64,000 nt of DNA from positions 30,500 to 94,499 of IMG/VR virus record IMGVR_UViG_3300025137_005870; one strand, 5' to 3'. Origin of the DNA: a virus. Shown here piece after piece: positions 8,915 through 61,790 of the stretch. Position numbers and translations under genes: made by a program. The notes below the pieces were generated by a model. That model did no database searches. It had not been told where the DNA came from and saw only the letters and a list, made by a program, of their open reading frames with translations. Every line of letters starts with the position of its first letter. The stretch's first letter is position 1.

Positions 8915-9227
8915 TGGAGACGGTGGGAATTGAACCCACGTCCGAAATAATTTCCAATTCAAGTCATCCACAGGCTTGGGAGATTTTTCAAAATCAACAA
9001 AACTTTTCTGATCTTACTGTGACCAGAGACAGGTTCTTGTTTGATTTTTACAACTGATCTGTTGTTTTGATTAGATTGGATAGAAGGCTCTAATCAGCCT
9101 CCCGATTAAGCAGCTTGTGCTAAAACGAAATTGTTGTTATTGGCAACTAATTGTTTTTGATTTTTTAAGTCATCACGACTGCCTGCACTATCCTCTTTTA
9201 TCACTCCGTCGAATCCTGAACGTCCCC
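8915..9227 (-). ncRNA. ssrA: tmRNA (ssrA)
   Basis: The 5' end GGGGACG (9221-9227) pairs with CGTCTCC at the 3' end (8916-8922) to form the acceptor stem, with A at 8915 as discriminator; CCA is not encoded. The universal GGATTCGACGG follows the 5' strand, and the T-arm GTGGGTTCAATTCCCAC is intact. The tag frame (9144 to 9106) reads ANNNNFVLAQAA then TAA, preceded by TTAGTT as in bacterial tmRNAs. The RNA rescues stalled ribosomes and tags the nascent chain. A run of seven T follows the 3' end. ClpP is also encoded in this window. Confidence 0.93.
9106..9144 (-). other. tmRNA proteolysis-tag reading frame
   Basis: Twelve codons GCC...GCT followed by TAA encode ANNNNFVLAQAA. The Ala resume codon, the Asn-rich start and the hydrophobic Ala-Ala end match bacterial ssrA tags such as ANDENYALAA, but the LAQAA ending is unusual. 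Confidence 0.85.
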
Positions 9228-13749: not shown

Positions 13750-13992
13750 TTAGTTTTCTACTTTATTAACATCAGTTTTATGTATCTTTTTTAAATTTAA
13801 ACACAAGACATCAAATTTTTTGCCTTTTGAAAACTCAAAAACGGCCGCAAACACAACTTTACGACCGCCCATCTCTTTGTTATACAAGTTTTCAATAACA
13901 CCAGACCTTATTGTTCTATTATCCGTCCACATAACAAGGTCACCAACATTAAACTTGGATTTTTTACCAAAAGTTGTGCTCTCAACCTTCAT
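13750..13992 (-). CDS. VGDLV-family small protein
   Basis: The 80-residue protein has KFNVGDLVMWTDNRTIRSG near residue 14 and a beta-rich SH3/KOW-like body (KVVFAAVFEF). It is one of about twenty relatives in the window, here placed in the late region. Function unknown. It overlaps the preceding gene by 11 bases. Confidence 0.6.
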   Translation of the reverse strand: MKVESTTFGKKSKFNVGDLVMWTDNRTIRSGVIENLYNKEMGGRKVVFAAVFEFSKGKKFDVLCLNLKKIHKTDVNKVEN

Positions 13993-14281
13993 CTTTCCTC
14001 TTTAATCTTGCGTCAAGAACATCTTCGACATAAGAAATCTTAGCATAAAGGTCATCAAAGACTTTTTCTTTCATATTAACCAGATCTATTCTTTTTAATC
14101 CGTCATTTTGCCGAATTTCTTTGGCCATCTGATCCATATTTGCCAAAATAGCATTCACTTCTGTCGTAAAAACGTGAGTCTGATACCTGTTTAAAACTTG
14201 GCTGGGATTAAAATCGCTTGGAACCAAATCATTCATCTCTTGTAGGATTATTTCTTTGAGTTCTGACTTAGTAACTTTCAT
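13982..14281 (-). CDS. Small protein with capsid-targeting-like N-terminus
   Basis: The 99-residue helical protein begins MKVTKSELKEIILQEMNDL. The same K-I/V-T-K-x-x-LKEII-x-E start recurs at 43115, 46611 and 47624. I chose ATG 14281 because a late motif at 14311-14320 lies 29 bp upstream and would fall inside any longer form. ILQE is a possible prohead-protease site. Confidence 0.6.
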   Translation of the reverse strand: MKVTKSELKEIILQEMNDLVPSDFNPSQVLNRYQTHVFTTEVNAILANMDQMAKEIRQNDGLKRIDLVNMKEKVFDDLYAKISYVEDVLDARLKRKDEG

Positions 14282-26638: not shown

Positions 26639-26935
26639 TTAATCATCGTCTGGATACATTTGGATATATCCGCTTAGTATGTCATACCCTATACCAAGCA
26701 TTATATCTCTTTCTTCTACCCACTGAGGATTAACTCTTCTGTTCTTCTCTCCCCTAGTCCATTCTGGACCTTCAAGCCACCTTATAAGATACACGTCATT
26801 CCATGCTCCCTTATACTTTTTTACCTTTTGAACAATACCTTTTATTGGCTCTCGCATAATCCTGCTCTTATGCTGGATAAGCGTGCCTTTGATTATTATT
26901 CTATTGATGTTGCCTTTTAGTCTCGTACTACTCAT
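26639..26935 (-). CDS. VGDLV-like small protein
   Basis: A 98-residue basic protein with beta-rich segments (GIVQKVKKYKGAWNDVYLIRW). It begins the first cluster of SH3-like small genes (26639-27933). Function unknown. Confidence 0.55.
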   Translation of the reverse strand: MSSTRLKGNINRIIIKGTLIQHKSRIMREPIKGIVQKVKKYKGAWNDVYLIRWLEGPEWTRGEKNRRVNPQWVEERDIMLGIGYDILSGYIQMYPDDD

Positions 26936-26948
26936 ACCTTACCTCAAC

Positions 26949-27191
26949 CTAAAAGGGAACTGGATGAATCTGGGGGTTATAGCTTTCTAATATCCTATTG
27001 CCGAGATCCATTGCATAGCCTCTAGTGTTTCCATCTTTACACCATTCGTCTCCGAAAAACAGAATATGATACCAAGAGTCATCTACCTCTTCTTGTGTTA
27101 CCACTGAAAGAATAGATTTACCCTCGACTCTCATTATCATCCCTATCTTGTTTAGACGTCGGTCATAAACTAAATCACCTGCATTAAACAT
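26949..27191 (-). CDS. VGDLV-family small protein
   Basis: The 80-residue protein starts MFNAGDLVYDRRLNKIGMIM and has the usual beta body ending in WYHILFFGDEW. It overlaps the upstream relative by eight bases. Confidence 0.6.
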   Translation of the reverse strand: MFNAGDLVYDRRLNKIGMIMRVEGKSILSVVTQEEVDDSWYHILFFGDEWCKDGNTRGYAMDLGNRILESYNPQIHPVPF

Positions 27192-27459
27192 CGTGATAAT
27201 ACTTTGCGTTGGCTGCTATTCGTTTATCTCTCTTCGATGGAATATCTCTCTTCCATACTCCGTTCTCGGCTTTCACCTCATAAAGCTCACAATCAATTTC
27301 CTTGGTTTCCCTACCGTCTGACCATAGGACCGTAACATCCGAAGAAGTTAGGGTGCCGTCGTTAACGAGGGCCGTGATTGTTCCTACTTGATACTGGACT
27401 TTGGGGTCCGTCATCCAAGCACGACGCACTTGTGTGCCTATATAATACTCACCTAACAT
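27184..27459 (-). CDS. VGDLV-like small protein
   Basis: A 91-residue protein with YYIGTQVRRAWM and VTVLWSDGRETKEIDCELYE. The WSDG(R/K)xTKExDC segment is nearly repeated in the protein at 33907, which supports a common origin of the two clusters. Confidence 0.6.
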   Translation of the reverse strand: MLGEYYIGTQVRRAWMTDPKVQYQVGTITALVNDGTLTSSDVTVLWSDGRETKEIDCELYEVKAENGVWKRDIPSKRDKRIAANAKYYHDV

Positions 27460-27506
27460 TGTTTTATACCTCTTGTGAAAAAAAATCTGGCGCGAAAAAC
27501 CTAACC

Positions 27507-27707
27507 TTAAACCTGCCCTTCGACGCGCTTCACCTTATACATCGCCAAGGGGCCGCGCGCGACCGAGAGGTCTGGATGCCCCGGCCAAGATACCCATTGA
27601 ACGCTAACTTCGGAGCCGTCCTGTCCTAATACAATACCAAGAGTGTTATCATACTTAAAGTATCTAACCATCTCACCCTTTTTGTATTTCTCTGGTTTAA
27701 AGTCCAT
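27507..27707 (-). CDS. VGDLV-like small protein
   Basis: A 66-residue protein with KYKKGEMVRYFKYDNTLGIV and EVSVQWVSWPG, an SH3-like pattern. It overlaps the upstream relative by 11 bases. Confidence 0.6.
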   Translation of the reverse strand: MDFKPEKYKKGEMVRYFKYDNTLGIVLGQDGSEVSVQWVSWPGHPDLSVARGPLAMYKVKRVEGQV

Positions 27708-27933
27708 TACCCTTTACCTTCTCTAACGTGGGTGCAAACTGTGATTCAACGACTGGACCCTCATCCCCATAAGGGTGTTTGAACCACAATACTTTCCAAT
27801 AGCTTAACTTGTGTCTCTCTGCATAGTTTAACTCTAGCTGAGAACAATTGTTAATCAACTTTAACTCTTGAAGCAAGAAGCCTCTGAAGTCCAAAACGTC
27901 GCTTCTTCTTACTAAATCGCCGACCTTTAACAT
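27697..27933 (-). CDS. VGDLV-family small protein
   Basis: A 78-residue protein starting MLKVGDLVRRSDVLDFRGF with the WKVLWFKHPYG strand. It is the first gene of the 26639-27933 cluster. Confidence 0.65.
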   Translation of the reverse strand: MLKVGDLVRRSDVLDFRGFLLQELKLINNCSQLELNYAERHKLSYWKVLWFKHPYGDEGPVVESQFAPTLEKVKGNGL

Positions 27934-28062: not shown

Positions 28063-29388
28063 CTAAGTTGTGATTTCAAGCACTTTTTCGTGAGTCTTGA
28101 AGTAAGGTTGCGTAGCACCATAGTTATCAGTCATCCACATACGACGACACTTGCTTGGGATAGGCTTTTCAGCGCACATATCCGTGAGCACAATGTGACC
28201 ATCAAACTTGTTATCATTGACATACTGCGAAGGGGCATTAAAGCAGGTTCCACCTGACATAACACGCTCCCACTTCTTCTTCTCACCCTTCTTCCAAGTA
28301 TATACTAGATCTTCATCAACACGAGTATCAAAGGGGACAACCACGAACTCGGCATACTTTGAAAGTTGCTCTAACTCTGCAAAGAACGCTTTGAGCATAG
28401 TATCTGATACACTACCAGATTGGTCAATAGAGATAGCAACGCGAGCAACACGCTCGGCTCGCTTGCCTGCGTGAATGTAGGGGAAACGCTTATTAATACG
28501 CTTCACAGTGGACCGACGATTAGCCTTCTGACTGGCTTTGACGAAGGAGCGCAAAACCTTTTTCCAATCTACCTTTGTAGCGATTGAATCAACGATTTGC
28601 TTACGCATACTAGCGGATACTGAACCCCAGCCCTTAGCACCAGCCTCTTGAACTGCGTCTTTGACCATTTGCTTTAGACGCTCTTCAGCGATTTGCTGGC
28701 TTGTAGCAGCATCTTCACCAGTGGCCTCACCCCAACCACTATGGTCATCGAGAGGGTCGGCGTCACCCATACCACCACCAGAACCAGAGCCTGAGCCGCC
28801 GCTATCGTCCTGCTCTTCGTCTTCTCCGCCTTCACCTTGACCTTGACCCTCACCGTCTTCACCGTCGCCAGAAGAGTCCTTAGAGCCCTCGCTATCGTCC
28901 TCGGATGCTTGCTCGTCATCTTGAAGAATCTTGTAATAAGCATCAGCCGAAAGACCAGTTTCAAGCTCGGTAAACGGTCCACGTCCGGGGATACAGCCGT
29001 TAGTAGGGATTTCATCGGCGATATGAGTGTTGATAGCTAGGTCCGTCGCGATATTCCACAACTTGCTCATACCTTCCTCGGGCATACGGGTAGTCACATG
29101 ACCATAAATCAAGTGATAGAACTCGTGCATCAAGATACCACGAACCCAACGATAAGGATTCTCTCGGTTCTCCTTGACTTCTCCACACTCCTCGATGATA
29201 CGCTCCATAAAATCAGGATTATAAAGCATCTCAAAGCGCCCGTCCTGTGTGATGTGAACACCAGCAGTGGGAACGGAGGTTGTAGCACGCTTATCGATGC
29301 GTCGCGAAAGAGCAGCAAAGAAGGGCTCATTCTGAAGGAGCCGGTGCGTGTGAGTATTAAGGTTGAAACTAGAATCTGAGACTGTCAT
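28063..29388 (-). CDS. DUF2201-like metallopeptidase/vWA protein
   Basis: The 441-residue protein starts at ATG 29388, after CGGGAG. The N-terminal part has MHEFYHLIYGH (HExxH) near residue 95. A long acidic Gly/Ser/Glu/Asp linker follows (residues 170-235). The C-terminal vWA-like domain has AISIDQSGSVSD (DxSGS MIDAS). It pairs with the MoxR ATPase at 30283; MoxR/vWA pairs act as chaperone-like complexes or metal-insertion factors. Promoter at 29431-29486. Confidence 0.8.
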   Translation of the reverse strand: MTVSDSSFNLNTHTHRLLQNEPFFAALSRRIDKRATTSVPTAGVHITQDGRFEMLYNPDFMERIIEECGEVKENRENPYRWVRGILMHEFYHLIYGHVTTRMPEEGMSKLWNIATDLAINTHIADEIPTNGCIPGRGPFTELETGLSADAYYKILQDDEQASEDDSEGSKDSSGDGEDGEGQGQGEGGEDEEQDDSGGSGSGSGGGMGDADPLDDHSGWGEATGEDAATSQQIAEERLKQMVKDAVQEAGAKGWGSVSASMRKQIVDSIATKVDWKKVLRSFVKASQKANRRSTVKRINKRFPYIHAGKRAERVARVAISIDQSGSVSDTMLKAFFAELEQLSKYAEFVVVPFDTRVDEDLVYTWKKGEKKKWERVMSGGTCFNAPSQYVNDNKFDGHIVLTDMCAEKPIPSKCRRMWMTDNYGATQPYFKTHEKVLEITT

Positions 29389-29403
29389 TGCGTACTCCCG
29401 TGC

Positions 29404-29416
29404 GGGGTTCATCCCC
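29404..29416 (-). other. 5'-UTR hairpin
   Basis: GGGG and CCCC around a five-base loop directly after the promoter leader. The MoxR transcript has an almost identical hairpin at 31392-31404. Confidence 0.4.
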
Positions 29417-29430
29417 GACCTTACATATAC

Positions 29431-29486
29431 ATTATACTACAATTTTGAGAGAAAGTAAAGGATTTTGATGTCAAGAGGATGTCAAG
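29431..29486 (-). promoter_or_regulatory. Accessory-region promoter with TTGACA doublet
   Basis: Minus strand: two CTTGAC copies 11 bp apart, 16 bp on to a -35 TTTACT (29454-29459), 17 bp, TATAAT (29431-29436), then GTATATGTAAGG. One of at least nine near-identical modules. Confidence 0.8.
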
Positions 29487-29495
29487 AGAGAAAAC

Positions 29496-29702
29496 CTAGA
29501 TTCCAACTTGCATATCAGGGCCTTCCATAAGTTCTTTTAGGTTGGCTAGTTCCTGCTCTCGCTGGGCGAGGCGCAAACGTAGGCGTTTGATTAATCCTGT
29601 TTTAAGCTCCTCTTCTAAGAAGATCTCACGCAAACCTCTTATGATAGCTTTAACCTCTTCTTTCGTAAGACTTACTGGAAACCTAGCATTAACCTCGGTC
29701 AT
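29496..29702 (-). CDS. Small helical protein (68 aa)
   Basis: Starts MTEVNARFPVSLTKEEVKAI at ATG 29702, with GGAG upstream and a 14-base overlap with the previous gene. It is an all-helical, charged protein of unknown function. Confidence 0.6.
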   Translation of the reverse strand: MTEVNARFPVSLTKEEVKAIIRGLREIFLEEELKTGLIKRLRLRLAQREQELANLKELMEGPDMQVGI

Positions 29703-30069
29703 GGCGATCTCCATCTGGATTATCGTATGGGTCCACATGAACCTCGGACGGGAACTGTAGCGCGTTGTCACGATTGGGAGGCTCGTCGAAAGTATCGGGT
29801 TGAAGGTCAATATCCGTCTCTGGATAATAATCATCAATACCCATCTCGTCTAGCTCCGTCCAAGCGGTGATAGTCTTATAATATGCCGCTCCAAGGCGGA
29901 TAATCTCGTCACTGAAGATATTGATGTATCTAGCAGGGTCAGAACCGATGTCCATTAACACAGGTACAAGCCCGTTTTCTGTGGCCATCTCACTGATAAG
30001 TGTGCTCTGAAACAAGATAGACAAGTCTTCAGCGGCGTTTTCAAGTTGTGATTTAATTTCGTTTGTCAT
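29689..30069 (-). CDS. Unknown acidic 126-aa protein
   Basis: Helical N-terminal half (MTNEIKSQLENAAEDLSILF) and an acidic, Pro/Asp-rich C-terminal half. I do not recognise it. It lies between a micro membrane protein and the helical gene at 29496. Confidence 0.6.
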   Translation of the reverse strand: MTNEIKSQLENAAEDLSILFQSTLISEMATENGLVPVLMDIGSDPARYINIFSDEIIRLGAAYYKTITAWTELDEMGIDDYYPETDIDLQPDTFDEPPNRDNALQFPSEVHVDPYDNPDGDRHDRG

Positions 30070-30077
30070 TTAATACC

Positions 30078-30167
30078 TCAGCTTACTGAAAAGATAGCTA
30101 GAAAGTGTGCAATAATAAGGGTGCTGATAAACAGCGAATCCCAATGTTGATCAATAGTGTTCCACAT
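30078..30167 (-). CDS. Micro membrane protein (29 aa)
   Basis: MWNTIDQHWDSLFISTLIIA then a hydrophobic tail. AAGGAG lies ten bases before the ATG. Too short for certainty, but the ribosome-binding site and composition support it. Confidence 0.4.
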   Translation of the reverse strand: MWNTIDQHWDSLFISTLIIAHFLAIFSVS

Positions 30168-30194
30168 AGTGTAGTTTCTCCTTGGTTAATAAAG

Positions 30195-30270
30195 TGGTGG
30201 GTTGTGTGGGATTCGAACCCACGACCATCGGATTAAAAGTCCGGTGCTCTACCAACTGAGCTAACAACCC
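30195..30270 (-). tRNA. tRNA-Lys (TTT)
   Basis: Full cloverleaf with GGGTTGT/ACAACCC acceptor stem, GTTCGAATC T-arm and CTTTTAA anticodon loop. CCA is encoded. Confidence 0.92.
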
Positions 30271-30282
30271 GAAAGTGTAGGT

Positions 30283-31356
30283 TTACCCTACGATCTCGAC
30301 GATGAAGTCAAGAACCTTCTGGCCATTCGATGCGGTTGCACCGTGCAGCGCGATAACATTGGAGTTATCTGCACTTGCGCCAATCGTTGCGAACAACTTC
30401 ATAGCAACTTCAGAAGGCAAAGTAACGAACCAGTCTGCGAGGTTCTGGATTTGCTCGATTGGAAGCGGACTACGGAGCACTTCACTTGCTTCCATCTTCT
30501 CAACGAGAGCAAGGTGGTCGTTGATACCGAAATCCTTGGTTGAAGCTACCTTACCGTGGACCAGAATGTCCTCGACGGTTACGATGCGCTCGTAGTTCTC
30601 AACAAAGTCACGGAACGAAACAGCAGCTTCGAAGCCGATAAAGGCGGCAGCGAGATTGTAGAGAGGAGCAAGGTTTTGCTTAGGCTCTACGAGAAGGTTA
30701 GCGTTGCCAACGGTATCGTTGAAACGAACCCAAGACCGGCGAGAAGGATAAACCTTGTTCGGCTCGTAACCACCAGCATCTGGCTTGTGCTCTAGGTGAG
30801 CGTGGTTCTGGTTAACAAAGTCCCAAACCATAGGGTCAACCTTGCCATTCGCCCAAGTCAACCAGTCGCTGACGGTAGGCTCTACATCAAACACGGTCCA
30901 ACGGTCAAGCTCGGCAGGGTCCATCTCACCAACTTGGTAGGAAGAAGCTCCACTATGCTCGCCACCGTTGACAGCAGCGAAGATGCGAGTCTGTGGGTGC
31001 AGATGCCAACCGTTCAACTTGCGAGAATCGGTAAGTTCAAAGATACCTTGACGAACCTCCATAGTCGCACGGTCAACCTCATCAAGGAAGAGCACCACAC
31101 CGTTGTCACAAGCCTCTTTGAGCCAATCGGGAGCGTTCCAGCGGGTAGACTCCCCATCGATGGAAGGAAGGCCCATAAGGTCGCCCTCGGTCATTTGAGA
31201 CGCGCGGCGTTCGACGACGGGAAGGTTGCGCTCGGCTGCAAACTGATAGACAACCTCGGATTTGCCGATGCCGTGACGCCCGCGAATAAGCACGGGGAAA
31301 CCTGCATCAATGACGTGAGCAACAACAGAGTTAAAAGTAGTGAAATCGATAGCCAT
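30283..31356 (-). CDS. MoxR-like AAA+ ATPase
   Basis: The 357-residue protein starts MAIDFTTFNSVVAHVIDAGF at ATG 31356, after TGGAGA. It has Walker A GRHGIGKS (26-33), Walker B VVLFLDEVDRA, and sensor-1 IFAAVNGGE. This is the MoxR branch of AAA+ ATPases. The partner is the vWA protein at 28063; both have the same promoter type and the same 5' hairpin. The function in the phage is unknown. Confidence 0.88.
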   Translation of the reverse strand: MAIDFTTFNSVVAHVIDAGFPVLIRGRHGIGKSEVVYQFAAERNLPVVERRASQMTEGDLMGLPSIDGESTRWNAPDWLKEACDNGVVLFLDEVDRATMEVRQGIFELTDSRKLNGWHLHPQTRIFAAVNGGEHSGASSYQVGEMDPAELDRWTVFDVEPTVSDWLTWANGKVDPMVWDFVNQNHAHLEHKPDAGGYEPNKVYPSRRSWVRFNDTVGNANLLVEPKQNLAPLYNLAAAFIGFEAAVSFRDFVENYERIVTVEDILVHGKVASTKDFGINDHLALVEKMEASEVLRSPLPIEQIQNLADWFVTLPSEVAMKLFATIGASADNSNVIALHGATASNGQKVLDFIVEIVG

Positions 31357-31391
31357 TGTGTGAATCTCCAGATTCAAGAGTTGAGTTCGGT

Positions 31392-32406: not shown

Positions 32407-33225
32407 CTATCGCTTCCCCTTCTTAATCCATCGTTCTTCGACGTGAAGCGGCGATGTCTCCCCGAAGAAAAGCACAGAATAAACCTTACTTCCACGAGCA
32501 GGGCTGGTAACCGGCTTTGCTCCTACCTTTAGGACGGTTGCCAGTTTGCCCGTTCGGGTCTTGTTCTCTCCAAGAGCGGACCAAGTAACATAAAGAAGGT
32601 TAGATGGAGCGGTGGCCCGCAAAGATACCATAGAACCTACACTATAGCGAGGCTCTGCCAAGGTTGCGGCGATAACCTTGCCTGCAAACTTGTTTTCCAC
32701 CATCTTCTTATAAGCCCGCTCGGAAGGGATGAATGTGTTGTCCTCCAAAGCCTTGGTTGCAAGGTCTTTAAAGTAAGGAGGGTTAGCAAGGTAATACCGT
32801 GCTGCAATCTCCATCATCTCCCGCATCTCGGAAGTAAAGCTCGAAGCCCAACTTTCGCGCTGCTCCTGTGCTTTGTCGCTGTGTCGGTCTGCGACCTTCA
32901 CCAAAATCTCCTTTTGACGGGGAGAAAGCTCCTTACCGATAGCCATTTGATGTTTGATGCTGGTTACAAAGTTCACACCCCAAGGGTCTTGTGCAGCCTC
33001 TGCGCGAGAAATCAAGCTATCAAGGCGACTTTGCTTGTCTGCGTCGATTGCGGGAGCAGAAGCAAGTTGTTCTTGCATAATGTCCAAAGCCTGCCTTTGA
33101 CCTGCACTTAGGGTCTTTTTGTTGGTGAATTGCTCTTGAAGCGACTCGATGAAAGAGCGGCTTGAACCTTGCAAACGAGTGTCTGCGAGGATAGAGTCAA
33201 AGATTGGTTGGATACGTCTGGCCAT
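32407..33225 (-). CDS. Helical-repeat protein with C-terminal SH3-like domain
   Basis: The 272-residue protein has helical repeats: RSFIESLQEQFTNKKTLSAG and NFVTSIKHQMAIGKELSPRQ are similar units of about 55 residues. From about residue 190 (YSVGSMVSLRATAPS) it resembles the VGDLV small-protein family. This is the only large protein in the window with that domain fused on. Function unknown. Confidence 0.65.
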   Translation of the reverse strand: MARRIQPIFDSILADTRLQGSSRSFIESLQEQFTNKKTLSAGQRQALDIMQEQLASAPAIDADKQSRLDSLISRAEAAQDPWGVNFVTSIKHQMAIGKELSPRQKEILVKVADRHSDKAQEQRESWASSFTSEMREMMEIAARYYLANPPYFKDLATKALEDNTFIPSERAYKKMVENKFAGKVIAATLAEPRYSVGSMVSLRATAPSNLLYVTWSALGENKTRTGKLATVLKVGAKPVTSPARGSKVYSVLFFGETSPLHVEERWIKKGKR

Positions 33226-33311: not shown

Positions 33312-33557
33312 TTAACTAGGTTGTTCCACAAGAACTAGATCTCTCACGTCATACATCTGTTTCTTCCCTATCTTTGAGCCAGTGAGCCAAATCACTGATG
33401 CTTTCTTGATTATTCGTCCTTGTCCATAATCCATACTTCCAACCTGTGCTATCGCTGCCAGTGCTGACCTGTCGCCTTTGTAGCAAACTGTGTCTCCTCT
33501 CTCTATTTCCCGCTTATAACCGGGGTTATCTTCGTTCGACGGGTATGTATACCTCAT
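33312..33557 (-). CDS. VGDLV-like small protein
   Basis: An 81-residue protein with EIERGDTVCYKGDRSALAAI and SVIWLTGSKIGKK. Last gene of the tandem array that starts at 35166. Confidence 0.6.
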   Translation of the reverse strand: MRYTYPSNEDNPGYKREIERGDTVCYKGDRSALAAIAQVGSMDYGQGRIIKKASVIWLTGSKIGKKQMYDVRDLVLVEQPS

Positions 33558-33741
33558 TTATCATCTCCACATCTTCTTTGTATCTAAACCAAGGTTTGCC
33601 CATTGTTTTGAGCCACTGTATCCTCACAAATTCTTGATTCCATTGGTCTGCGCCCTCTTCCACTATGACGCCTACCCCCAGACCTTTTGCGTCACCCTCG
33701 GCAGCTTCGGGCTTTAACCTTACTAAATCACCGACTTTCAT
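33526..33741 (-). CDS. VGDLV-family small protein
   Basis: A 71-residue protein: MKVGDLVRLKPEAAEGDAKG then VRIQWLKTMGKPW. It overlaps both neighbours in the array. Confidence 0.7.
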   Translation of the reverse strand: MKVGDLVRLKPEAAEGDAKGLGVGVIVEEGADQWNQEFVRIQWLKTMGKPWFRYKEDVEMINEVYIPVERR

Positions 33742-33920
33742 TTTCCACTCACTGAAATAAGATTGCTTGTATACACGAGGTCGTAGCCTTCTGCCGATTG
33801 TGTTGGTTCCAAATACCTAATGCGGACCTCGCCTTTATATGAGGGAACATAGGTAACAATCGCTAGCTTACCCTTGCTTTTACAGTGTGGTGCTATTCTT
33901 ACTAAATCACCGACTTTCAT
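33738..33920 (-). CDS. VGDLV-family small protein
   Basis: A 60-residue protein: MKVGDLVRIAPHCKSKGKLA then VRIRYLEPTQ. It overlaps the upstream copy by 14 bases, where MKVGD of this gene is read in another frame as the upstream tail. Confidence 0.7.
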   Translation of the reverse strand: MKVGDLVRIAPHCKSKGKLAIVTYVPSYKGEVRIRYLEPTQSAEGYDLVYTSNLISVSGK

Positions 33921-34116
33921 TTAGGGCCTCCAGATAACAATCCCATTCCTTTGTGTGCTTGCCATCGGCCCATAGAACTTCGTAAATGCGTTTCTTAGGG
34001 TGAGGCTGCGCCTCTCTGTCACTTAACCCTACCACGATGCCGGACGCCGCATAGCGGCTCTCAGAGGTCTTAAACGCGGTTGGAGAACTAAACTTTACTA
34101 AATCACCGACTTTCAC
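33907..34116 (-). CDS. VGDLV-family small protein
   Basis: A 69-residue protein starting at GTG 34116 (MKVGDLVKFSSPTAF) with EVLWADGKHTKEWDC, close to the 27184 relative. It ends LNESR. Confidence 0.7.
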   Translation of the reverse strand: MKVGDLVKFSSPTAFKTSESRYAASGIVVGLSDREAQPHPKKRIYEVLWADGKHTKEWDCYLEALNESR

Positions 34117-34273
34117 TGATTACCTCAAAGTGGCTTTTGCCTGCGTTCATCTTGTAGCCTGTTTTTAGGCTCTGAACATAGATTGATGAGTCATCCTTGT
34201 GGGTGATAAGCACCATCCAAAGGTTGTTTTCACTGTCTTGGTTTTGTAGTCTCACCAAATCACCTTTCTTCAT
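34103..34273 (-). CDS. VGDLV-family small protein
   Basis: A 56-residue protein: MKKGDLVRLQNQDSENNLWM then YVQSLKTGYKM. It ends VISESR. Both ends overlap neighbours by 14 bases, as expected for the array. Confidence 0.7.
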   Translation of the reverse strand: MKKGDLVRLQNQDSENNLWMVLITHKDDSSIYVQSLKTGYKMNAGKSHFEVISESR

Positions 34274-34451
34274 TGATTACCTCTAAGTTTCCCGCCATTA
34301 CAATGTCTTCTTGTCTCAGTGGCCCAAACCATCGGACTTTCCAGTAGTTTGGACCGATAGGGCTGGCAAAGTGTGGTGATGGACCAAGAACAAAACCTTT
34401 TCTAACTCGCTTGAATCGTTCCTTCAAAGCTACAATATCACCGGCTTTCAT
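34260..34451 (-). CDS. VGDLV-family small protein
   Basis: A 63-residue protein: MKAGDIVALKERFKRVRKGF then WKVRWFGPLRQ. It ends LEVINEER. Confidence 0.7.
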   Translation of the reverse strand: MKAGDIVALKERFKRVRKGFVLGPSPHFASPIGPNYWKVRWFGPLRQEDIVMAGNLEVINEER

Positions 34452-34599
34452 TGATTACCTCCAACAAGTCTATGCTGCAAGCATCTGGTTCCCCAGTATC
34501 TACCCAGACAATCCGAGCACTGTGCTCGCCATCAAATCCAGTTATAATAGCCTTCCACGCGGATGTGCCCTTTCTTTGCACCAAATCACCGACTCCCAC
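34438..34599 (-). CDS. VGDLV-family small protein
   Basis: A 53-residue protein starting at GTG 34599: MGVGDLVQRKGTSAWKAIIT then ARIVWVDTGEP. It ends LEVINESR. The overlap pattern is the same. Confidence 0.65.
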   Translation of the reverse strand: MGVGDLVQRKGTSAWKAIITGFDGEHSARIVWVDTGEPDACSIDLLEVINESR

Positions 34600-34771
34600 T
34601 GATAACCTCCAAATAACGGGCTGAATGGTTCATTCTAACACCATCCATCCAAGTAACTTCTACTTCTTTGTTATCTCCGATTTCTTCGGGATCAACGCAG
34701 GTTACCAGCCCCACGTCTGCCACGCCTGTATCTGGCCATGATGCCGCTTTTACTAAATCACCGACTTCCAC
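34586..34771 (-). CDS. VGDLV-family small protein
   Basis: A 61-residue protein; GTG 34771 is preferred over an upstream ATG because it gives the standard 14-base overlap and the MEVGDLVKA start. It ends LEVISGSR. Confidence 0.65.
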   Translation of the reverse strand: MEVGDLVKAASWPDTGVADVGLVTCVDPEEIGDNKEVEVTWMDGVRMNHSARYLEVISGSR

Positions 34772-34946
34772 TGATAACCTCAAATCTGTTCTTTGAAAGT
34801 CGGCGTCTCTTGCCGCTTTTCAGGCTCTGAACCATAACGCGGGTCATACCTGTGTCGCTATGGACAACAATGAATAAATCGCCTTGATGCTTTCGCATCA
34901 TCCTCGTAGTTGCCTGCTTCAACCTCAACAAATCACCGGCCTTCAT
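34758..34946 (-). CDS. VGDLV-family small protein
   Basis: A 62-residue protein: MKAGDLLRLKQATTRMMRKH then RVMVQSLKSGKRR. It ends FEVISGSR. Confidence 0.7.
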   Translation of the reverse strand: MKAGDLLRLKQATTRMMRKHQGDLFIVVHSDTGMTRVMVQSLKSGKRRRLSKNRFEVISGSR

Positions 34947-35166
34947 TTACAACCTCCAACTCATCTACTGGAAGCCAACCAAGCCAGTCGCCGGATTGAG
35001 ATGTGAGCATAACCCAGTTAACACCTCGGTTTCCAGCGAACGATGCAGCCTGTGGTGCTCGCCCAACCGTGAAACCTTCATCGCCGCGTTCGCGGATACG
35101 GTTCTTTGTTCGCTGACTTGCGCCTTGTGCTGCTTTAAGTTTAACAACTTCACCAACCTTAAACAT
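34933..35166 (-). CDS. VGDLV-family small protein
   Basis: A 77-residue protein: MFKVGEVVKLKAAQGASQRT, longer central loop, ends LEVVNEGR. It is the first VGDLV gene of the second array and overlaps the leader gene at 35159 by eight bases. Confidence 0.7.
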   Translation of the reverse strand: MFKVGEVVKLKAAQGASQRTKNRIRERGDEGFTVGRAPQAASFAGNRGVNWVMLTSQSGDWLGWLPVDELEVVNEGR

Positions 35167-35341
35167 TGCTTTCCCCTTCTTCTGTGATAGTTACCTTTGG
35201 ACCGTGGTTTTCTGCCACGACCTGTGCGAACGTCTTTTCTCCAGATAGAACCGAGTGAATCGCGTCCTCGATTTCTTTCTGTGTCATATTCGTGATGTCA
35301 AGCTCATTGTGCATCTCGATGTCCAAGTTCTTCATCTTCAT
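35159..35341 (-). CDS. Array-leading small protein
   Basis: A 60-residue protein starting MKMKNLDIEMHNELDITNMT. It is not of the VGDLV type; mostly helical. It stands directly behind the promoter at 35369-35424 and is followed by the tandem array down to 33312. Confidence 0.55.
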   Translation of the reverse strand: MKMKNLDIEMHNELDITNMTQKEIEDAIHSVLSGEKTFAQVVAENHGPKVTITEEGESNV

Positions 35342-35368: not shown

Positions 35369-35424
35369 ATTATACTAAATTTTGAGCCAGAAGTCAAGGC
35401 TTTTAATGTCAAGCAAATGTCAAG
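35369..35424 (-). promoter_or_regulatory. Accessory-region promoter with TTGACA doublet
   Basis: Doublet at 35408-35413 and 35419-35424; -35 TTGACT (35392-35397), 17 bp, TATAAT (35369-35374). Drives the whole VGDLV array. Confidence 0.82.
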
Positions 35425-35432
35425 ACTGATAA

Positions 35433-35849
35433 TCAAGGTCTGGGGCGGTCAATGGCTCGGCTGGTCATCTTACTAAGGTAGTTCTCGAAGTCACTATCCA
35501 TGCTCATGTCCCAATCGTCAGCTTCAAAGTCGTCTTCTTCGTAATCATCGTCATAAGCCTCTGTCGCGCTCTGTGAGGGCTCGGGTGGTTGTGGGGTTGC
35601 CATCACACTTACAGGCTCCTCGGGCTCCGCGTAAGGCTCAAAAAGAGCGCGTGAGGCAGCCCAATCAACAAGGTGATCCCCATCGGCTATCTCTTGGGGG
35701 CTAAATTGTTCTTGTGCTATCTTTTCAATTAGTTCGGGACTCGCTAGGACTGCGATAACCTTCCCGTGTTTAGTAACGCCAACGGCGTGTAGATCTTTGA
35801 TGATAGAGGTAAATTCACCCCGAAGTTTGCTAGCGGTAATCGTTTTCAT
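35433..35849 (-). CDS. Phd/YefM-like antitoxin-domain protein
   Basis: The 138-residue protein starts MKTITASKLRGEFTSIIKDL at ATG 35849, after GGAG. The N-terminal 50 residues fit the Phd/YefM antitoxin fold (AVGVTKHGKVIAVLASPE). The rest is Pro/Asp/Glu-rich. No Doc/RelE-like toxin is next to it. It may neutralise a host toxin or regulate transcription. Confidence 0.6.
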   Translation of the reverse strand: MKTITASKLRGEFTSIIKDLHAVGVTKHGKVIAVLASPELIEKIAQEQFSPQEIADGDHLVDWAASRALFEPYAEPEEPVSVMATPQPPEPSQSATEAYDDDYEEDDFEADDWDMSMDSDFENYLSKMTSRAIDRPRP

Positions 35850-35876
35850 TATTTTCTCCATTGTGTAGTTTTAAGG

Positions 35877-38931: not shown

Positions 38932-38987
38932 ATTATACTAAATTTTGAGTCTGAAGTCAAGACTTTTAATGTCAAGGAAATGTCAAG
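38932..38987 (-). promoter_or_regulatory. Accessory-region promoter with TTGACA doublet
   Basis: Doublet at 38971-38976 and 38982-38987; -35 TTGACT (38955-38960), 17 bp, TATAAT (38932-38937). Drives the ParB-like gene. Confidence 0.82.
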
Positions 38988-39498
38988 AGCGGTTATCAAA
39001 GTATGAAGCAACCATATCAGACGCTTGCTTGAACAAAATAATATTACCCTCGGTCATAACGTCCAGTAGTGCAGCCTTCTCTTTCATAAAAACCTTCGCA
39101 AAGTTAGGATCATCCTTGATAATGCTCTTGCCATTGCTGATGAGGTCTGCCAGTTTGACAGTCTTGGCATCGGGTGATGCTTCGGCTGTGTGTTGGCGAT
39201 CAAGCTCCTTTCTCAACGCTCGGTTACCATCTTCTGGCTTGCTTACGTCGGTCAAGTCGCTGACCAGTGCGGCCACACGAGGGCCGAACTCATCTTTGAT
39301 TTCCTTGATAGATACTGGAGTATCCTCTACCACGTCGTGCAACAACGCAGCAGCCTGCATCTCGGGATCATCGATAACCTGCTTTACAAGCTCCATAACC
39401 TCGATTGGGTGGACGATGTAAGGTTCACCAGTATACTTACGGACCTGACCTTTGTGGGCCTCCGTCGCGAACTCCAATGCTTTCTTTACTACCGTCAT
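38983..39498 (-). CDS. HD-domain alarmone hydrolase-like protein (SpoT/MESH1 type)
   Basis: The 171-residue protein matches the hydrolase half of SpoT/RelA: KYTGEPYIVHPIEV (H30), AALLHDVVEDT (H54, D55, E58, D59), followed by a helical region ending in DAKTVKLADL (Asp ligand). It lacks synthetase and regulatory domains, like MESH1 small alarmone hydrolases. The likely reaction is removal of pyrophosphate from (p)ppGpp, which would relieve host growth arrest; NADPH phosphatase activity is also known for MESH1. Confidence 0.8.
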   Translation of the reverse strand: MTVVKKALEFATEAHKGQVRKYTGEPYIVHPIEVMELVKQVIDDPEMQAAALLHDVVEDTPVSIKEIKDEFGPRVAALVSDLTDVSKPEDGNRALRKELDRQHTAEASPDAKTVKLADLISNGKSIIKDDPNFAKVFMKEKAALLDVMTEGNIILFKQASDMVASYFDNRS

Positions 39499-52589: not shown

Positions 52590-52926
52590 TTGTATCCTCC
52601 TGTGGTTGTAGCATACTCGTCATGTCTTGCAACCTTTCGCTCATATCATTCAGTTTTTCCAAGTCCATATCTTGCCGTATTGGTGGATTTATAGTAGAAA
52701 CATACCCACCAAGTATAGCCTGACAATCTGCTAACCTCTGATCTATTTGATACATAGACTGCCGCGTTGCGTCTATAATGCTAGCTGCTACCTCTACTTG
52801 GCCCTTATCCAGAAAAGTAGAGGTTGTGTTTAGTTCGTAGGTCCAATCCATAGAAGTAGGTAACAATCTCTTCGCTTCATTAAGCACGTTATTCAACTCT
52901 GTAACATACTGTACTTTAACTTCCAT
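52573..52926 (-). CDS. Small coiled-coil protein
   Basis: A 117-residue helical protein (MEVKVQYVTELNNVLNEAKR). It starts inside the last codons of groEL. No domain recognised. Confidence 0.55.
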   Translation of the reverse strand: MEVKVQYVTELNNVLNEAKRLLPTSMDWTYELNTTSTFLDKGQVEVAASIIDATRQSMYQIDQRLADCQAILGGYVSTINPPIRQDMDLEKLNDMSERLQDMTSMLQPQEDTNGTTN

Positions 52927-54469
52927 CTTCAGCCTCAATAATAGCGTGATCGGTAGTGATCAAAGTTCCTGCTGCTGATGCTGCGTTCTGTAAGGCTGTG
53001 ATTGTAACCTTAACTGGGTCAATAATGCCAGAACCAATCATGTTAGTCATCTTAGCAGCCTTGAAGTCCCAACCTCGGTCACCCTTTGCTCTCTGAACCA
53101 TGGCCAAGATTACATCAGGACTTTCACCAGCGTTCTTTGCCATCTGGCGTAGTGGTTCTGCGACTGCCTTATAGACAATCTTTCCATAGCCCTTTGTGTG
53201 TTTTCTACCACGGACAAGAGCAACGCCGCCACCCGGAACAATACCTTCCAACTGTGCTGCTCGCACTGCTTCAAGTGCATCTTCAATACGATGCTTCTTC
53301 TCAATCATCTCAATCTCTGTTGCAGCACCAACTTTAATAACTGCAACACCAGATGCAAGTCTTGTAATCCGTTCTTGGATACGCTCACACTCACGAAGAC
53401 TTTCAGTTTGTTCAAGTTCTACTTTAAGATTATCAATCTGGGTATCGACATCTTCATAGTTTCCTTTACCACCGACGATCGTGGTCCAGCCTTTTAGAAC
53501 ATCAATCTTCTTACAAGTTCCAAGATGTTCCAGCTTCACGTCTTTAAGTTTAAGACCTGCGGACTTAGTTGTGTATGCTGCTCCTGTAGAGAGACATAAG
53601 TCTTTAAGGATGTTCCTGCGCTCCTCACCATAACGAGGAGCCTTGATTGCTGCGATCTTCATAGTACCACGCATCATATTCATAATGAGTGCTGCGTGTG
53701 CTTGCCCTTCGATGTCAGAGGCGACGATAATCAACGGTCTCCCTTCTCTTGCGACTGTTTCAAGAACTGGTAGAATGTCTTCCACTTTATCAATCTTACA
53801 GTCTGCGACAAGAATAAGAGGATCTTCGTACACAACTGCTCCACGGCGTTCGTCATTGATAAACGCTGTCGCCGTATAACCAGAATCAAAACGAAAGCCC
53901 TCGGTCAGATCAAGACTTGTCTCTAGGGAACGGGCTTCCTCTACGGAGATAGAGCCGTCCTTGCCAACACAGTCAACTGCTTTTGCAACCAGCTTTCCAA
54001 TAGCTTCATCATTGTTCGCGGAGATGGTTGCAATATGTGCAATGTCTTCTTCGCTTTGGATAGGTCTGGCCATATCTTTTAGGTTCTGTACATACTCTTC
54101 AACGGTTGCGTCAATCTGTCGCTTCACGTCAATAGGTGATGCACCAGCCACAATGTGGCGCTGTGCGCCGTGCAGGATAGCTCTAGCGAGCACTGTAGCG
54201 GTTGTAGTACCATCACCAGCAACCGAGTTGGTCTGCCGTGAGGCTTGCTTAATGATCTGTGCTCCGACGTCCTCAAAGGGATCGTCAAGGTCCACAAACT
54301 CTGCGACTGTTACGCCGTCTTTTGTGATAATAGGTCGCTTTCCTGCTTGTTTAATGATTACATTACGCCCCCGGGGGCCAAGCGTTGAAGCAACGTTATC
54401 AGCAAGTTTATCAACACCAGCGATGATCTTCTGACTTAACGAAGACCCCGCGTCATAACTCTTAGACAA
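52916..54469 (-). CDS. groEL: GroEL-like group I chaperonin
   Basis: The 517-residue protein has VASTLGPRGRNVIIKQAGKR, VTVAEFVDLDDPFEDVGAQI, VAGDGTTTATVLAR (ATPase Asp) and VPGGGVALVRG, all group I signatures. It lacks the GGM tail and no groES gene is visible, so it may use the host GroES. A consensus promoter stands at 54494-54522. It probably folds phage capsid or tail proteins. Confidence 0.95.
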   Translation of the reverse strand: MSKSYDAGSSLSQKIIAGVDKLADNVASTLGPRGRNVIIKQAGKRPIITKDGVTVAEFVDLDDPFEDVGAQIIKQASRQTNSVAGDGTTTATVLARAILHGAQRHIVAGASPIDVKRQIDATVEEYVQNLKDMARPIQSEEDIAHIATISANNDEAIGKLVAKAVDCVGKDGSISVEEARSLETSLDLTEGFRFDSGYTATAFINDERRGAVVYEDPLILVADCKIDKVEDILPVLETVAREGRPLIIVASDIEGQAHAALIMNMMRGTMKIAAIKAPRYGEERRNILKDLCLSTGAAYTTKSAGLKLKDVKLEHLGTCKKIDVLKGWTTIVGGKGNYEDVDTQIDNLKVELEQTESLRECERIQERITRLASGVAVIKVGAATEIEMIEKKHRIEDALEAVRAAQLEGIVPGGGVALVRGRKHTKGYGKIVYKAVAEPLRQMAKNAGESPDVILAMVQRAKGDRGWDFKAAKMTNMIGSGIIDPVKVTITALQNAASAAGTLITTDHAIIEAEDGS

Positions 54470-58643: not shown

Positions 58644-58985
58644 TTAAAGATCTGGGTTTTGCTTTTCAAGAATATCAAAAATGTTCTCTATCTCTTCATC
58701 ACCGAGAGCCAACTTGTTCGATTGCTCTTTTCCAGTATTAATTAGTTCTCTTTCTTCTTTTATACTCTTTTTGGTTCGGTTACCTATGTTTTTTGATGCT
58801 TTTAACTTATCAACATAAGATAATACGTCTCCATCCTGCATTAAATAGCCAGTTACAATGCCTCGAAAGAACTGGGCTTGGGATACCCCGTCGTGCTGCA
58901 AGCGAATCTTTAACTCTGCAAATCGTTTATCCGAGTCGTAGAATACAACCTTCTTGTTCATCGTACCGTACTTGGGCTCACTCAT
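58644..58985 (-). CDS. Unknown small helical protein
   Basis: The 113-residue protein starts [36 protein letters not shown] may be a ribbon-helix-helix segment. Its ATG overlaps the stop of the purine enzyme by one base (TAATG). Confidence 0.55.
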   Translation of the reverse strand: MSEPKYGTMNKKVVFYDSDKRFAELKIRLQHDGVSQAQFFRGIVTGYLMQDGDVLSYVDKLKASKNIGNRTKKSIKEERELINTGKEQSNKLALGDEEIENIFDILEKQNPDL

Positions 58986-59995
58986 TAGATTCTCTTAATG
59001 TGTGTGGAACTTTCTACCTGTCCCGATTGTGTTTGCTGCACAAAGGTCGCTCTGGACTGAAGCGATAAAACACTATCAGCACCAGAATAAGAGATGCCGC
59101 TTGTAATACCGGTTCGTAGTTCATCCAAAACATCTGCTACTGGTCCTTTAAGTGGCACTGTGTGCGACACACCTTCAATGGATGAAACTCTATTACGCCA
59201 GCTTCTTTGCGCTTCTTTGCTTGCCATACCTCGGTAGATCTTTTCTCTACCGTCTTTAGTATTAATAACTTGGCCCGGTGTCTCATCTGTTCCTGCCAGA
59301 AGCGAGCCTAACATTACAAAGTCTGCTCCTGCTGCTAGTGCTTTTACAATGTCACCACTGGTTCGGATGCCTCCGTCAGCGATAAGTGTTACATCTCTAT
59401 CTGACTCGGCACAATCCATAACCGACTGAAGGGTTGGCATGCCGTGGCCTGTCTGGATCCGTGTGGAGCAAATAGAGCCTCCACCAATGCCTACGCGGAT
59501 AGAGTCAGCACCCCAGTCTGCTAGGTCATTGAACGCTTCTAGTGTCGCGACGTTACCAGCCATGATGTGAACTTCGTCACCAAATGTGTTTTTCAATACT
59601 TGAAGTGTGTATCTTACCTTTGCGTGATGTCCGTGTGCTACATCAATACAAAGAAAATTAACTCCAGCCTCAACAAGTGCTTTGGCGCGTTGAACAGAAG
59701 TGTCACCTACTCCGATCGCGGCGCCAATTTGATGACCAGACATACGGACCTCTGCAACCATACTCGCCTGCTCCACAACCGTGTTGTAGCGATGAATAAC
59801 ACCGACGCCACCCTCTTTGTGCATAGCACAGGCCATCCTATCCTCCGTCACAGTATCCATTGGACTAGAGATAATAGGTAATCTGAGTGGATGCAATCCT
59901 TTTAACTTCTGCTGAATCTTAATGTCCTTGCGGGTAAAGATCTCTGAGTATTGAGGCACAAGCAGCACATCATCAAAACTAAGGGCTGTCTTCAT
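58985..59995 (-). CDS. IMP dehydrogenase / GMP reductase family enzyme
   Basis: The 336-residue protein begins [14 protein letters not shown] and has [25 protein letters not shown] with catalytic Cys176, [16 protein letters not shown], and [16 protein letters not shown]. It has no CBS domain. The C-terminal part ([20 protein letters not shown]) is closer to GMP reductase; the flap Arg-Tyr pair of IMPDH is not obvious. It converts IMP to XMP or GMP to IMP; I cannot decide which. It is one of three purine genes. Confidence 0.8.
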
Positions 59996-60263
59996 TACGT
60001 TCCTCTACTCTTTTCATGAAATCCTCTGTAATCTGGATTGCCTTGTCCCAGCACTCTGGACAGTAAAGATTGACTTTTTCTTCTTCCTGCCTTACCACGA
60101 CCTGCCAAGACATAACCATTTCTTTGTCTTTTTTATTAAATGGCTTTTGGCAGGTTAGGCACTCGTCCTCTAACTTACCAAACAGCATGATTTTTTCCTG
60201 CATCTCTCCGGTGCCATCTTTCTTGGATTGCTTTACAGCAGACCGTCTTTGTTCTCTATTCAT
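59979..60263 (-). CDS. Zinc-ribbon-like protein
   Basis: A 94-residue protein starting MNREQRRSAVKQSKKDGTGE at ATG 60263, after GGAGGAAG. CLTCQKPF and CPECW form a zinc ribbon. Function unknown. Confidence 0.6.
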   Translation of the reverse strand: MNREQRRSAVKQSKKDGTGEMQEKIMLFGKLEDECLTCQKPFNKKDKEMVMSWQVVVRQEEEKVNLYCPECWDKAIQITEDFMKRVEERNEDSP

Positions 60264-60699
60264 CTTCTTCCTCCAAGGGTCGAGTGATTGGTTGTGATGA
60301 TGTGGCTGTGATAAGGGTAGGTAGGCCGGGGACAAAGTTAGTTAGTGGGGGGTAATTCACTTCTACTTTGCAATCCATCCAAATAACATCTGATGCTGTT
60401 AAATCAGATTCTGAAATAACAATAAAGCAGTCTCCTGCCAAGCAATCAAATCTACTATTTCTGGATACAGTCTCGCTGATGTAATCAGCAGCGCGGGTGT
60501 AGGGATCGGTAAAGATATTAATACCTGTTGCCGCTCCACCTCTACACCCCGCTGTAAGAGCCGATGTAACCCTGCCTGTCTCTACTGAATACCAAAGAAG
60601 CTCAATGCCTCCAAAGATAAGAAGTAAGAAGATCGGCAAGATTAGCGCGAACTCTACAGCGTAACTGCCCCGTCTACCATAAGATGTCATCCTCATCAT
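60256..60699 (-). CDS. TadE-like pseudopilin
   Basis: The 147-residue protein begins MMRMTSYGRRGSYAVEFALI. GRRG/SYAVEF is the prepilin site of TadE/TadG with Glu+5, followed by a hydrophobic helix (LPIFLLLIFGGIELL). The exported part holds three Cys. In bacteria TadE is a minor pseudopilin of the Tad machine. It overlaps the dUTPase stop (ATGA). The Flp pilin at 9235 is the only other Tad component in the window. Confidence 0.85.
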   Translation of the reverse strand: MMRMTSYGRRGSYAVEFALILPIFLLLIFGGIELLWYSVETGRVTSALTAGCRGGAATGINIFTDPYTRAADYISETVSRNSRFDCLAGDCFIVISESDLTASDVIWMDCKVEVNYPPLTNFVPGLPTLITATSSQPITRPLEEEDE

Positions 60700-61154
60700 C
60701 GCCCTGTGCTACCAAGCGCGCCAGCCCCACGATCAGAAATAGTAATAGGAGCCCATTCATACAGGTTGTCATTCTTAGTCTCCAAGAACCTTACAGGCAC
60801 AACGGGGATTACTACTGCTTGTGCGATCTTGTCGCCGGAGCTAATCGATTGTGGTTTTGAACCGATGTTATGAAGATTCACGAAGACTTCTCCATTATAC
60901 CCAGAGTCAACCACACAGGCTCCAACCATAAGTTGCTTCTTGGCTGCATTTCCGCTACGGTTCATAATCTGAATCATGTAGCCGTGTGGGACACCAAATT
61001 TTAGACCTGTTGGCAAGATGGCGCTCTGGCCTGCTGCTAGGACTTGAGTCCCACCATTCACAGGGTTGAACCGAAGGTCTAGGCCAGCATCCGAGGGGTT
61101 AGCTCGGACTGGCTTATGCTCGCAATGCGGCAGCGAATGATATTCGAGGATCAA
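60696..61154 (-). CDS. dut: dUTPase
   Basis: The 152-residue protein has motif 1 NPSDAGLDLR, motif 2 NRSGNAAKK, motif 3 VDSGYNGEVFVNLHN and motif 5 DRGAGALGSTG. All five trimeric dUTPase motifs are recognisable. It removes dUTP and supplies dUMP. Confidence 0.93.
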   Translation of the reverse strand: MILEYHSLPHCEHKPVRANPSDAGLDLRFNPVNGGTQVLAAGQSAILPTGLKFGVPHGYMIQIMNRSGNAAKKQLMVGACVVDSGYNGEVFVNLHNIGSKPQSISSGDKIAQAVVIPVVPVRFLETKNDNLYEWAPITISDRGAGALGSTGR

Positions 61155-61432: not shown

Positions 61433-61450
61433 ACTAACCTCCACAGTTAT

Positions 61451-61723: not shown

Positions 61724-61746
61724 TCCTCTCTCCTCTTTACTTATAT

Positions 61747-61775
61747 AATATAACACCGATTGGTGCCAACGTCAA
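61747..61775 (-). promoter_or_regulatory. sigma70-type promoter
   Basis: TTGACG (61770-61775), 17 bp, TATATT (61747-61752). Drives the thioredoxin gene. Confidence 0.7.
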
Positions 61776-61790
61776 GCATAAAAATAAAAT

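Follow-up and report, generated by a model that had tools for sequence, protein, structure and literature searches.

A tandem array of overlapping single-gene cassettes, probably recombining at their start/stop overlaps, in an uncultured phage clade

How does a virus come to carry a row of small genes that all begin alike and overlap one another by the same number of nucleotides? The locus that raises this question lies on the minus strand of a 64,000-nucleotide stretch of IMG/VR virus record IMGVR_UViG_3300025137_005870 (positions 30,500 to 94,499 of the record; hereafter the window), where an initial annotation, made from the sequence alone, had described about ten short genes with a shared MKVGDLV start, most neighbors overlapping by 14 nucleotides (nt). 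Nine genes with MKVGDLV-like starts are indeed present at 33526-35166, and two of them are shorter than 60 residues, as had been claimed (56 amino acids [aa] at 34103-34273 and 53 aa at 34438-34599); the tenth, at 33312-33557, is divergent and is matched only marginally by the family profile (E=0.09). In the order of transcription, seven consecutive junctions among the nine have the 14-nt overlap and the eighth has an overlap of 4 nt; for the gene at 34586, the 14-nt overlap requires a GTG start at 34771 rather than a TTG at 34783. Since a second contig (L004) carries an identical array, the arrangement is unlikely to be an assembly artefact. We think it rather probable that the feature is a tandem array of gene cassettes, free of any integrase, that recombine at their start/stop overlaps.

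A typical junction reads, on the coding strand from 5′ to 3′, TTG GAG GTA ATC A followed directly by ATG AAA GTC GGT GAT TTG GTA. The second part belongs to the cassette head, RTGAARGTCGGTGAYTTRGT, which encodes MKVGDLV. Its first five codons specify M-K-V-G-D of the next protein and, read in another frame, finish the previous protein with N-E-S-R and a stop codon; the third frame of the head also holds a TGA, contained within ATGA. Because the head has stops in both other frames, any gene that enters it ends after an overlap of 4 or 14 nt. Just upstream, GAGG serves the next gene as its Shine-Dalgarno site and is also part of the E-V codons of the previous gene. With up to three mismatches allowed, the junction pattern occurs seven times in the window, against 0.02 copies expected. 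Among the direct repeats of the array these copies make up the main family, spaced 148-196 nt from start to start.

It had been proposed that the conserved tail of each protein is a by-product of the conserved head of the next gene. This is true of the last residues, N/S-E-S/G-R: among the relatives described below, 91% of members with a 14-nt neighbor downstream end in xR, compared with 16% of members without one, which argues that the downstream head dictates the ending. It is not true of the preceding LEVI, which forms the fifth and last β strand in AlphaFold2 models and persists as a LEVI-like stretch in 50% of members that have no family member downstream. The head provides an ending for any gene that precedes it. 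Family heads overlap the ends of 60 unrelated open frames by 14 nt; for 40 of these frames there are homologues in other viruses, and many of those homologues lack the xESR tail. Spurious frames may be among the other 20. Zinc-finger-like proteins ahead of family heads end in RKCRHIEETRNESR, and of two proteins that are 95% identical, L138 (ending in ATDDEGKKNASR) and L019 (ending in ATDDEEK), only L138 has an xESR-type tail. Selection on the tail can be seen but is mild: the Val codon GTT, with which the upstream protein would end in Trp, makes up 1% of Val codons in overlapping heads versus 15% in non-overlapping heads.

The junction recurs throughout a phage clade known here from uncultured contigs alone. 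A search of IMG/VR with the junction pattern returned at least 120 stretches, and the loci examined (2.4 Mb, about 149 virus groups, although some loci of one contig were possibly counted as separate viruses) encode 1373 distinct family proteins preceded by a Shine-Dalgarno-like site, a count biased towards typical members because membership was defined by the head motif. In a shuffled-DNA control covering 30 loci, 266 members were found in the real sequences and 2 in the shuffled ones. Neighboring pairs overlap by 14 nt in 598 of 728 cases and by 4 nt in 61, and 26 records, namely that of the window and 25 others with lengths of 172-293 kb, hold 10-33 members each. A tblastn search of an isolated-phage collection, with a consensus-like sequence or one real member as query, found no relative. 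The two isolated phages whose baseplate proteins come nearest, Microcystis phage Mel-JY01 and Flavobacterium phage immuto, gave no family match. The exact pattern was found in only eight stretches of bacterial or archaeal genomes, all in metagenome bins. One contig, PBIO01000025.1 (L214), comes from a Halobacteriovorax bin that probably contains phage DNA, and is at most a weak hint of the host. A search with the array's downstream neighbor returned the same virus again and nothing else.

Comparisons within the clade show that cassettes are shuffled whole, between arrays and between phages. Related phages differ by 13 clean gains or losses of whole cassettes, and every junction is still 14 nt. 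Cassettes that are 85-98% identical lie at different positions or in different arrays (L042 versus L062, for example), and cassette-core DNA can be 92-100% identical in phages that have only 72-76% identity in the ATPase gene nearby. For orthologous cassettes of 70-98% identity, the cassette that follows is orthologous as well in 34 of 173 cases; the corresponding count for ordinary genes (110 aa or longer) is 134 of 216. The breakpoints fall in the head. In 62 orthologous pairs with different upstream neighbors, identity is at chance upstream, about at junction background from -12 to approximately +5, and 0.91-0.97 from +6 of the head onwards; on the 3′ side, in 51 pairs, identity is high through the stop codon and at chance by approximately +20 of the next head. 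Because identity changes there on both sides, the exchanges must have been resolved inside the head of about 20 bp.

We suggest the following mechanism. Each cassette is a single small gene whose predicted product is an SH3-like barrel of about 50-80 residues. Its head brings a start site, the beginning of the first strand, and stop codons in the other two frames, and the GAGGT codons of its last strand, L/F-E-V-I, double as the Shine-Dalgarno site of the next gene. Since all junctions share nearly the same 20-35 bp, homologous recombination between them would add, remove, or exchange whole cassettes and always leave a working overlap behind. The phage's own RecA-like recombinase would probably carry this out. 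Of ten clade records, the nine from relatives all encode a RecA family protein; the tenth, the fragmentary record to which the window belongs, does not. Tyrosine integrase (PF00589) is absent from the same ten records; attC sites had no dedicated search. Homologous recombination between junction copies is the simplest account of what drives the shuffling.

The initial annotation had spoken of an expansion, and a fixed junction is what repeated duplication of one unit should leave behind: the array would have grown within a lineage by unequal crossing-over and then diverged, the overlap being a founder effect. A few clear tandem duplicates do exist (cassettes 12 and 13 of L009, 79% identical; 7 and 8 of L085, 87%), and related pairs within a virus number 47, compared with 27 under random dealing, so some local duplication occurs. 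(The same count led us to reject the idea that duplicates are avoided within a virus.) Against a general role for duplication, only 3.5% of cassettes have a paralogue of at least 50% identity in their own virus, while 57% have such a relative in another virus, and near-identical cassettes are found in other viruses at other positions. Neighboring cassettes are hardly more alike than distant members of an array, and clustering suggests that the cassettes of one array do not group together. Expansion by recent duplication does not survive these comparisons, and we regard growth by duplication and divergence as quite improbable. There are about 1000 cassette clusters at 50% identity, extrapolated by Chao2 to about 2900; the arrays do not look like the product of more than a little recent local duplication, and they owe their diversity to the turnover of a pool that is old and deep.

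A different alternative accepts the exchanges and denies the junction any part in causing them. Illegitimate recombination would join genes at random points, joins at gene ends would survive, and the junction, with its start, Shine-Dalgarno site, and stop, would be kept for translational coupling. This is the usual account of phage mosaicism, boundary sequences having been invoked only in some cases (PMC3029335), and the translational role of the junction is obvious. Single genes outside arrays retain much of the head, with relaxed codons (Gly is GGT in 63%, against 100%). The Val codon is harder to reconcile with this account: it is GTC in 56% of heads that are not read by an upstream gene, versus 20% in gene bodies, a difference that favors conservation of the head at the level of DNA where no dual coding constrains it; recent descent from arrays could, however, leave the same pattern. 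The breakpoints, moreover, lie inside the shared 20 bp. We consider random exchange followed by selection unlikely, and continue to favor homologous recombination between junctions.

What do the cassettes encode? The earlier suggestion of an SH3/KOW-like fold is borne out for two members. AlphaFold2 models of 33526-33741 and 34103-34273, made with alignments of 100 and 60 relatives, have confidence scores (pLDDT) of 89.5 and 91.7; the fold assignment consists of these two models, both predictions, and each is a five-stranded barrel with a short helix ahead of the last strand, as in SH3-like small barrels. Foldseek places both among SH3-like folds with a probability of about 1.00 (E 0.002-0.08); neighbors in the PDB are the KOW domains of Spt5 and NusG, Tudor domains, cyanobacterial PetP, ribosomal proteins, and type II dihydrofolate reductase, and the best matches in a viral library are small phage proteins, mostly unnamed or uncharacterized. 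Scans of single members against Pfam and PHROGs gave chance-level matches only, and phmmer with 34438-34599 gave nothing useful. Family-level matches in the same two collections are weak and scattered, several of the best being SH3-like families, and a profile search of PDB sequences returned weak SH3-like matches, including uL24 and NusG. KOW (PF00467) reached at best E=0.08, in one of 100 members; for MIB_HERC2 (PF06701), three of 100 members matched at E up to 1 (best 7e-4), with no match at the curated cut-off and none in six records. Within the family profile the buried strands are conserved (VGDLV, GIVV, VxW, LEVI) and the loops carry near-zero information. When head and tail are removed, the remaining core profile beats all 100 shuffles for 8 of 15 distinct sequences, a set in which 33526 had a double entry.

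Between orthologous cassettes the ratio of nonsynonymous to synonymous substitution rates (dN/dS) is 0.22-0.26, so the products are real proteins under purifying selection, relaxed relative to longer genes (0.08-0.11 in two usable bins, the lowest-dS control bin probably being contaminated by spurious frames). The expectation of an SH3 fold with fast-changing loops is thus correct in part: the loops vary on a conserved core, and positive selection is not detected between close orthologues. Judged from promoter and ribosome-site sequences, the array is probably a co-transcribed repertoire, and the promoter suggests that it is expressed early. A conserved core with free loops, a strong host-type promoter, and a largely non-redundant set in each virus fit a repertoire of binders delivered early. 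That the cassette proteins bind varied host proteins or complexes is a possibility to which we give slightly less than even weight. With less confidence than for recombination or early expression, we suggest that they may be take-over or counter-defence factors whose varied host partners could be proteins or nucleic acids. A fuller reading, which we think less likely than not, is that of an integrase-free viral cassette system in which the start/stop overlap itself would be the recombination site, every cassette would bring a stop codon for its predecessor and a ribosome-binding site for its successor, and the whole clade would draw on an open pool of thousands of SH3-like binders for different host targets.

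Two other functions can be weighed, the first of which is compatible with the cassette model. The proteins might act on nucleic acids or on the transcription and translation machinery, in the manner of KOW, NusG, Spt5, or ribosomal proteins, tuning host RNA polymerase or ribosomes rather than forming a varied set of protein inhibitors; the closest folds and the weak sequence matches to uL24 and NusG point that way. Those matches have E values of about 0.01-0.05, however, small SH3-like barrels match one another whatever their function, and the profile has no conserved basic surface in the loops, so that we think such a role somewhat unlikely. The proteins might instead be type II dihydrofolate reductases (DfrB) or similar enzymes, or else represent non-catalytic ancestors of such enzymes. 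R67 dihydrofolate reductase is among the best fold matches (TM 0.65 and 0.80), and distant DfrB homologues have been published from a Pseudomonas phage and a Vibrio phage (PMC9835603). The Pfam family DHFR_2 (PF06442), however, is found in none of 26 phage records, and a loose active-site pattern, [VIL]Q[ILV]Y, occurs in 3 of 1373 members, none of them DfrB-like around it; we regard an enzymatic role of this kind as very improbable. DfrB membership, prompted by the fold match and by a by-eye likeness of 34438-34599, was rejected for want of a profile match and a VQIY-type site.

Several points weigh against our interpretation as a whole. Recombination is deduced from comparisons rather than observed as events, and random recombination followed by selection could also leave breakpoints at gene ends, because products have to be in frame to work. 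For homologous recombination to be efficient, a head of 20 bp is short. As noted above, there are more related pairs within a virus than random dealing predicts. The core-only scores of the genes starting at 35166, 34273, and 33557 do not beat shuffles, so that the homology of these cores rests on head and tail and, for 34273, also on the predicted fold. Finally, binding to host proteins is no more than plausible, and dN/dS gives no sign of an arms race between close orthologues.

The features of the array and its relatives elsewhere in the window are collected in Table 1. The next downstream copy of the array promoter on the minus strand lies at 33279, and the operon ends ahead of it. The overlap of 32 nt between the tenth member and its neighbor is counted from the first ATG of the former, which by reading resembles a 62-aa cassette of the L005 array.

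Table 1. Junctions, promoter, and genes of the array, with dispersed family members, in window coordinates
Feature	Position	Strand	Basis or remark
Junction repeat (next gene's Shine-Dalgarno site, start codon, previous gene's stop)	34932..34956	-	pattern and repeat search
Junction repeat	34757..34781	-	pattern and repeat search
Junction repeat	34585..34609	-	pattern and repeat search
Junction repeat	34437..34461	-	pattern and repeat search
Junction repeat	34259..34283	-	pattern and repeat search
Junction repeat	34102..34126	-	pattern and repeat search
Junction repeat	33906..33930	-	pattern and repeat search
σ70-like promoter of array operon (TTGACT, TATAAT)	35369..35397	-	near-consensus; within repeat family D3
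Operon lead gene, 60 aa, outside SH3-like family	35159..35341	-	no database match; 8-nt overlap with member 1
Family member 1, MFKVGEVV..., 77 aa	34933..35166	-	profile E=1.5e-5; core-only score not above shuffles
Family member 2, 62 aa	34758..34946	-	profile E=2.3e-10
Family member 3, 61 aa, GTG start	34586..34771	-	profile E=3.9e-13
Family member 4, 53 aa, GTG start	34438..34599	-	profile E=1.5e-12
Family member 5, 63 aa	34260..34451	-	L005 relative 36% identical; profile search
Family member 6, 56 aa	34103..34273	-	predicted SH3-like barrel (AlphaFold2, pLDDT 91.7)
Family member 7, 69 aa, GTG start	33907..34116	-	profile E=1.8e-13
Family member 8, 60 aa, no xESR tail, precedes 4-nt junction	33738..33920	-	profile E=8e-8
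Family member 9, 71 aa, 4-nt overlap with member 8	33526..33741	-	predicted SH3-like barrel (AlphaFold2, pLDDT 89.5)
Divergent tenth member, 81-aa open reading frame, SH3-like part ERGDTVCYKG...	33312..33557	-	profile E=0.09
Dispersed member, second small cluster without 14-nt junction	26949..27191	-	profile E=0.0014
Dispersed member, second cluster	27184..27459	-	profile search; core-only test
Dispersed member, second cluster	27507..27707	-	profile search; core-only test
Dispersed member, second cluster	27697..27933	-	profile E=0.00015
Dispersed member, 57 aa	37599..37772	-	start corrected from 38003; profile search; core-only test
Open frame holding dispersed member (stop-to-stop coordinates)	13750..14001	-	profile E=0.004

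About twenty copies had been counted in the window; 15 are supported and up to 18 are possible. A profile search at E<0.01 recovers the nine array genes and those at 27697, 27184, 37599, 26949, 27507, and 13750; besides the tenth array gene, 26639 (E=0.014) and 24393 (E=0.22) are marginal, and in the same search 7754 (E=5.5) and the C terminus of 32407 (E=8.5), both counted previously, are unsupported as members. The true gene at 37599 is probably the 57-aa open reading frame from the ATG at 37772, as its L005 relative indicates. Four or five further small SH3-like genes form a second cluster at 26639-27933 (minus strand), which has no 14-nt junction and is possibly an older or degenerate array.

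Certain neighbors accompany the arrays. As in the window, a relative of 32407-33225, a zinc-knuckle protein, a MoxR-type ATPase, and a vWA/metallopeptidase-like protein are often encoded nearby. In the window, 28063-31377 (minus strand) encodes a MoxR-type AAA ATPase and a protein matching annotations of a "zincin-like protease fused to vWA," a pair found beside arrays across the clade. Directly upstream of the array operon, 35433-35861 (minus strand) has a Phd/YefM antitoxin-like N terminus (E=2e-4, below the curated cut-off); no toxin partner was seen for it. A near-identical promoter box, TTGACTTnnGnCnCAAAATnTAGTATAAT, stands ahead of six minus-strand transcription units, at 32272, 33279, 35397, 36590, 37844, and 38960. 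Farther away, and all on the minus strand, are a protein that by reading is of HD type and like small (p)ppGpp hydrolases (38983-39498; HKGQVRKYTGEPYIVHP), a phage-encoded GroEL with about 45% identity to its best phage-collection matches (52916-54469), and a complete tmRNA gene with the tag ANNNNFVLAQAA (8915-9227; ARAGORN and Rfam). By reading, 58985-59995 is like IMP dehydrogenase or GMP reductase, 60696-61154 like dUTPase, and 61791-62822 like adenylosuccinate synthetase, possibly PurZ; the clustering of these genes at 58985-62822 (minus strand) may suggest a remodelled nucleotide metabolism or modified DNA.

Among known proteins, the cassette products are closest to the SH3-like small barrels (the KOW domains of NusG and Spt5, Tudor, PetP/NdhS, DfrB), with which they share, by prediction, five strands and a short helix before the last. 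They differ in having no significant family-level sequence match and in their tandem organization, no description of which was found in the literature searched. Nip, a counter-defence protein of phage phi3T, is likewise a phage protein with predicted SH3-like domains (PMC11984713); the likeness is at the level of fold, without a demonstrated sequence relationship, and Nip, at 279 aa, is predicted to have two such domains plus an HU-like domain. If our interpretation is right, the clade holds a large uncharacterized pool of small SH3-like phage proteins, a place to seek host take-over or counter-defence factors; the DfrB enzymes of trimethoprim resistance have the same fold as that predicted for these proteins.

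As an arrangement of genes, the array resembles those of integrons: single-gene cassettes stand in line, any of them can take the place of another, all come from one large common pool, and each is unlike its neighbors. It differs in that the phage cassettes overlap, belong to one fold family, and apparently are exchanged by homology, with no tyrosine integrase in ten records. A virus built in this way could swap genes freely without an integrase, its overlap being so made that any cassette fits behind any other. The nearer parallel is the proposal, cited in PMC3029335, that short conserved boundary sequences drive phage mosaicism, their presence at gene borders letting general recombination swap whole genes between phages. 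Here, too, a short border sequence is conserved, breakpoints fall in it, and a general recombinase is encoded in nine of ten records, so that the array may offer a concrete place to examine the disputed role of such sequences. The array departs from that proposal in two ways: (i) its border sequence lies within overlapping coding regions, merging stop, Shine-Dalgarno site, start, and structural codons; and (ii) a single genome holds many copies of the junction within one family of proteins.

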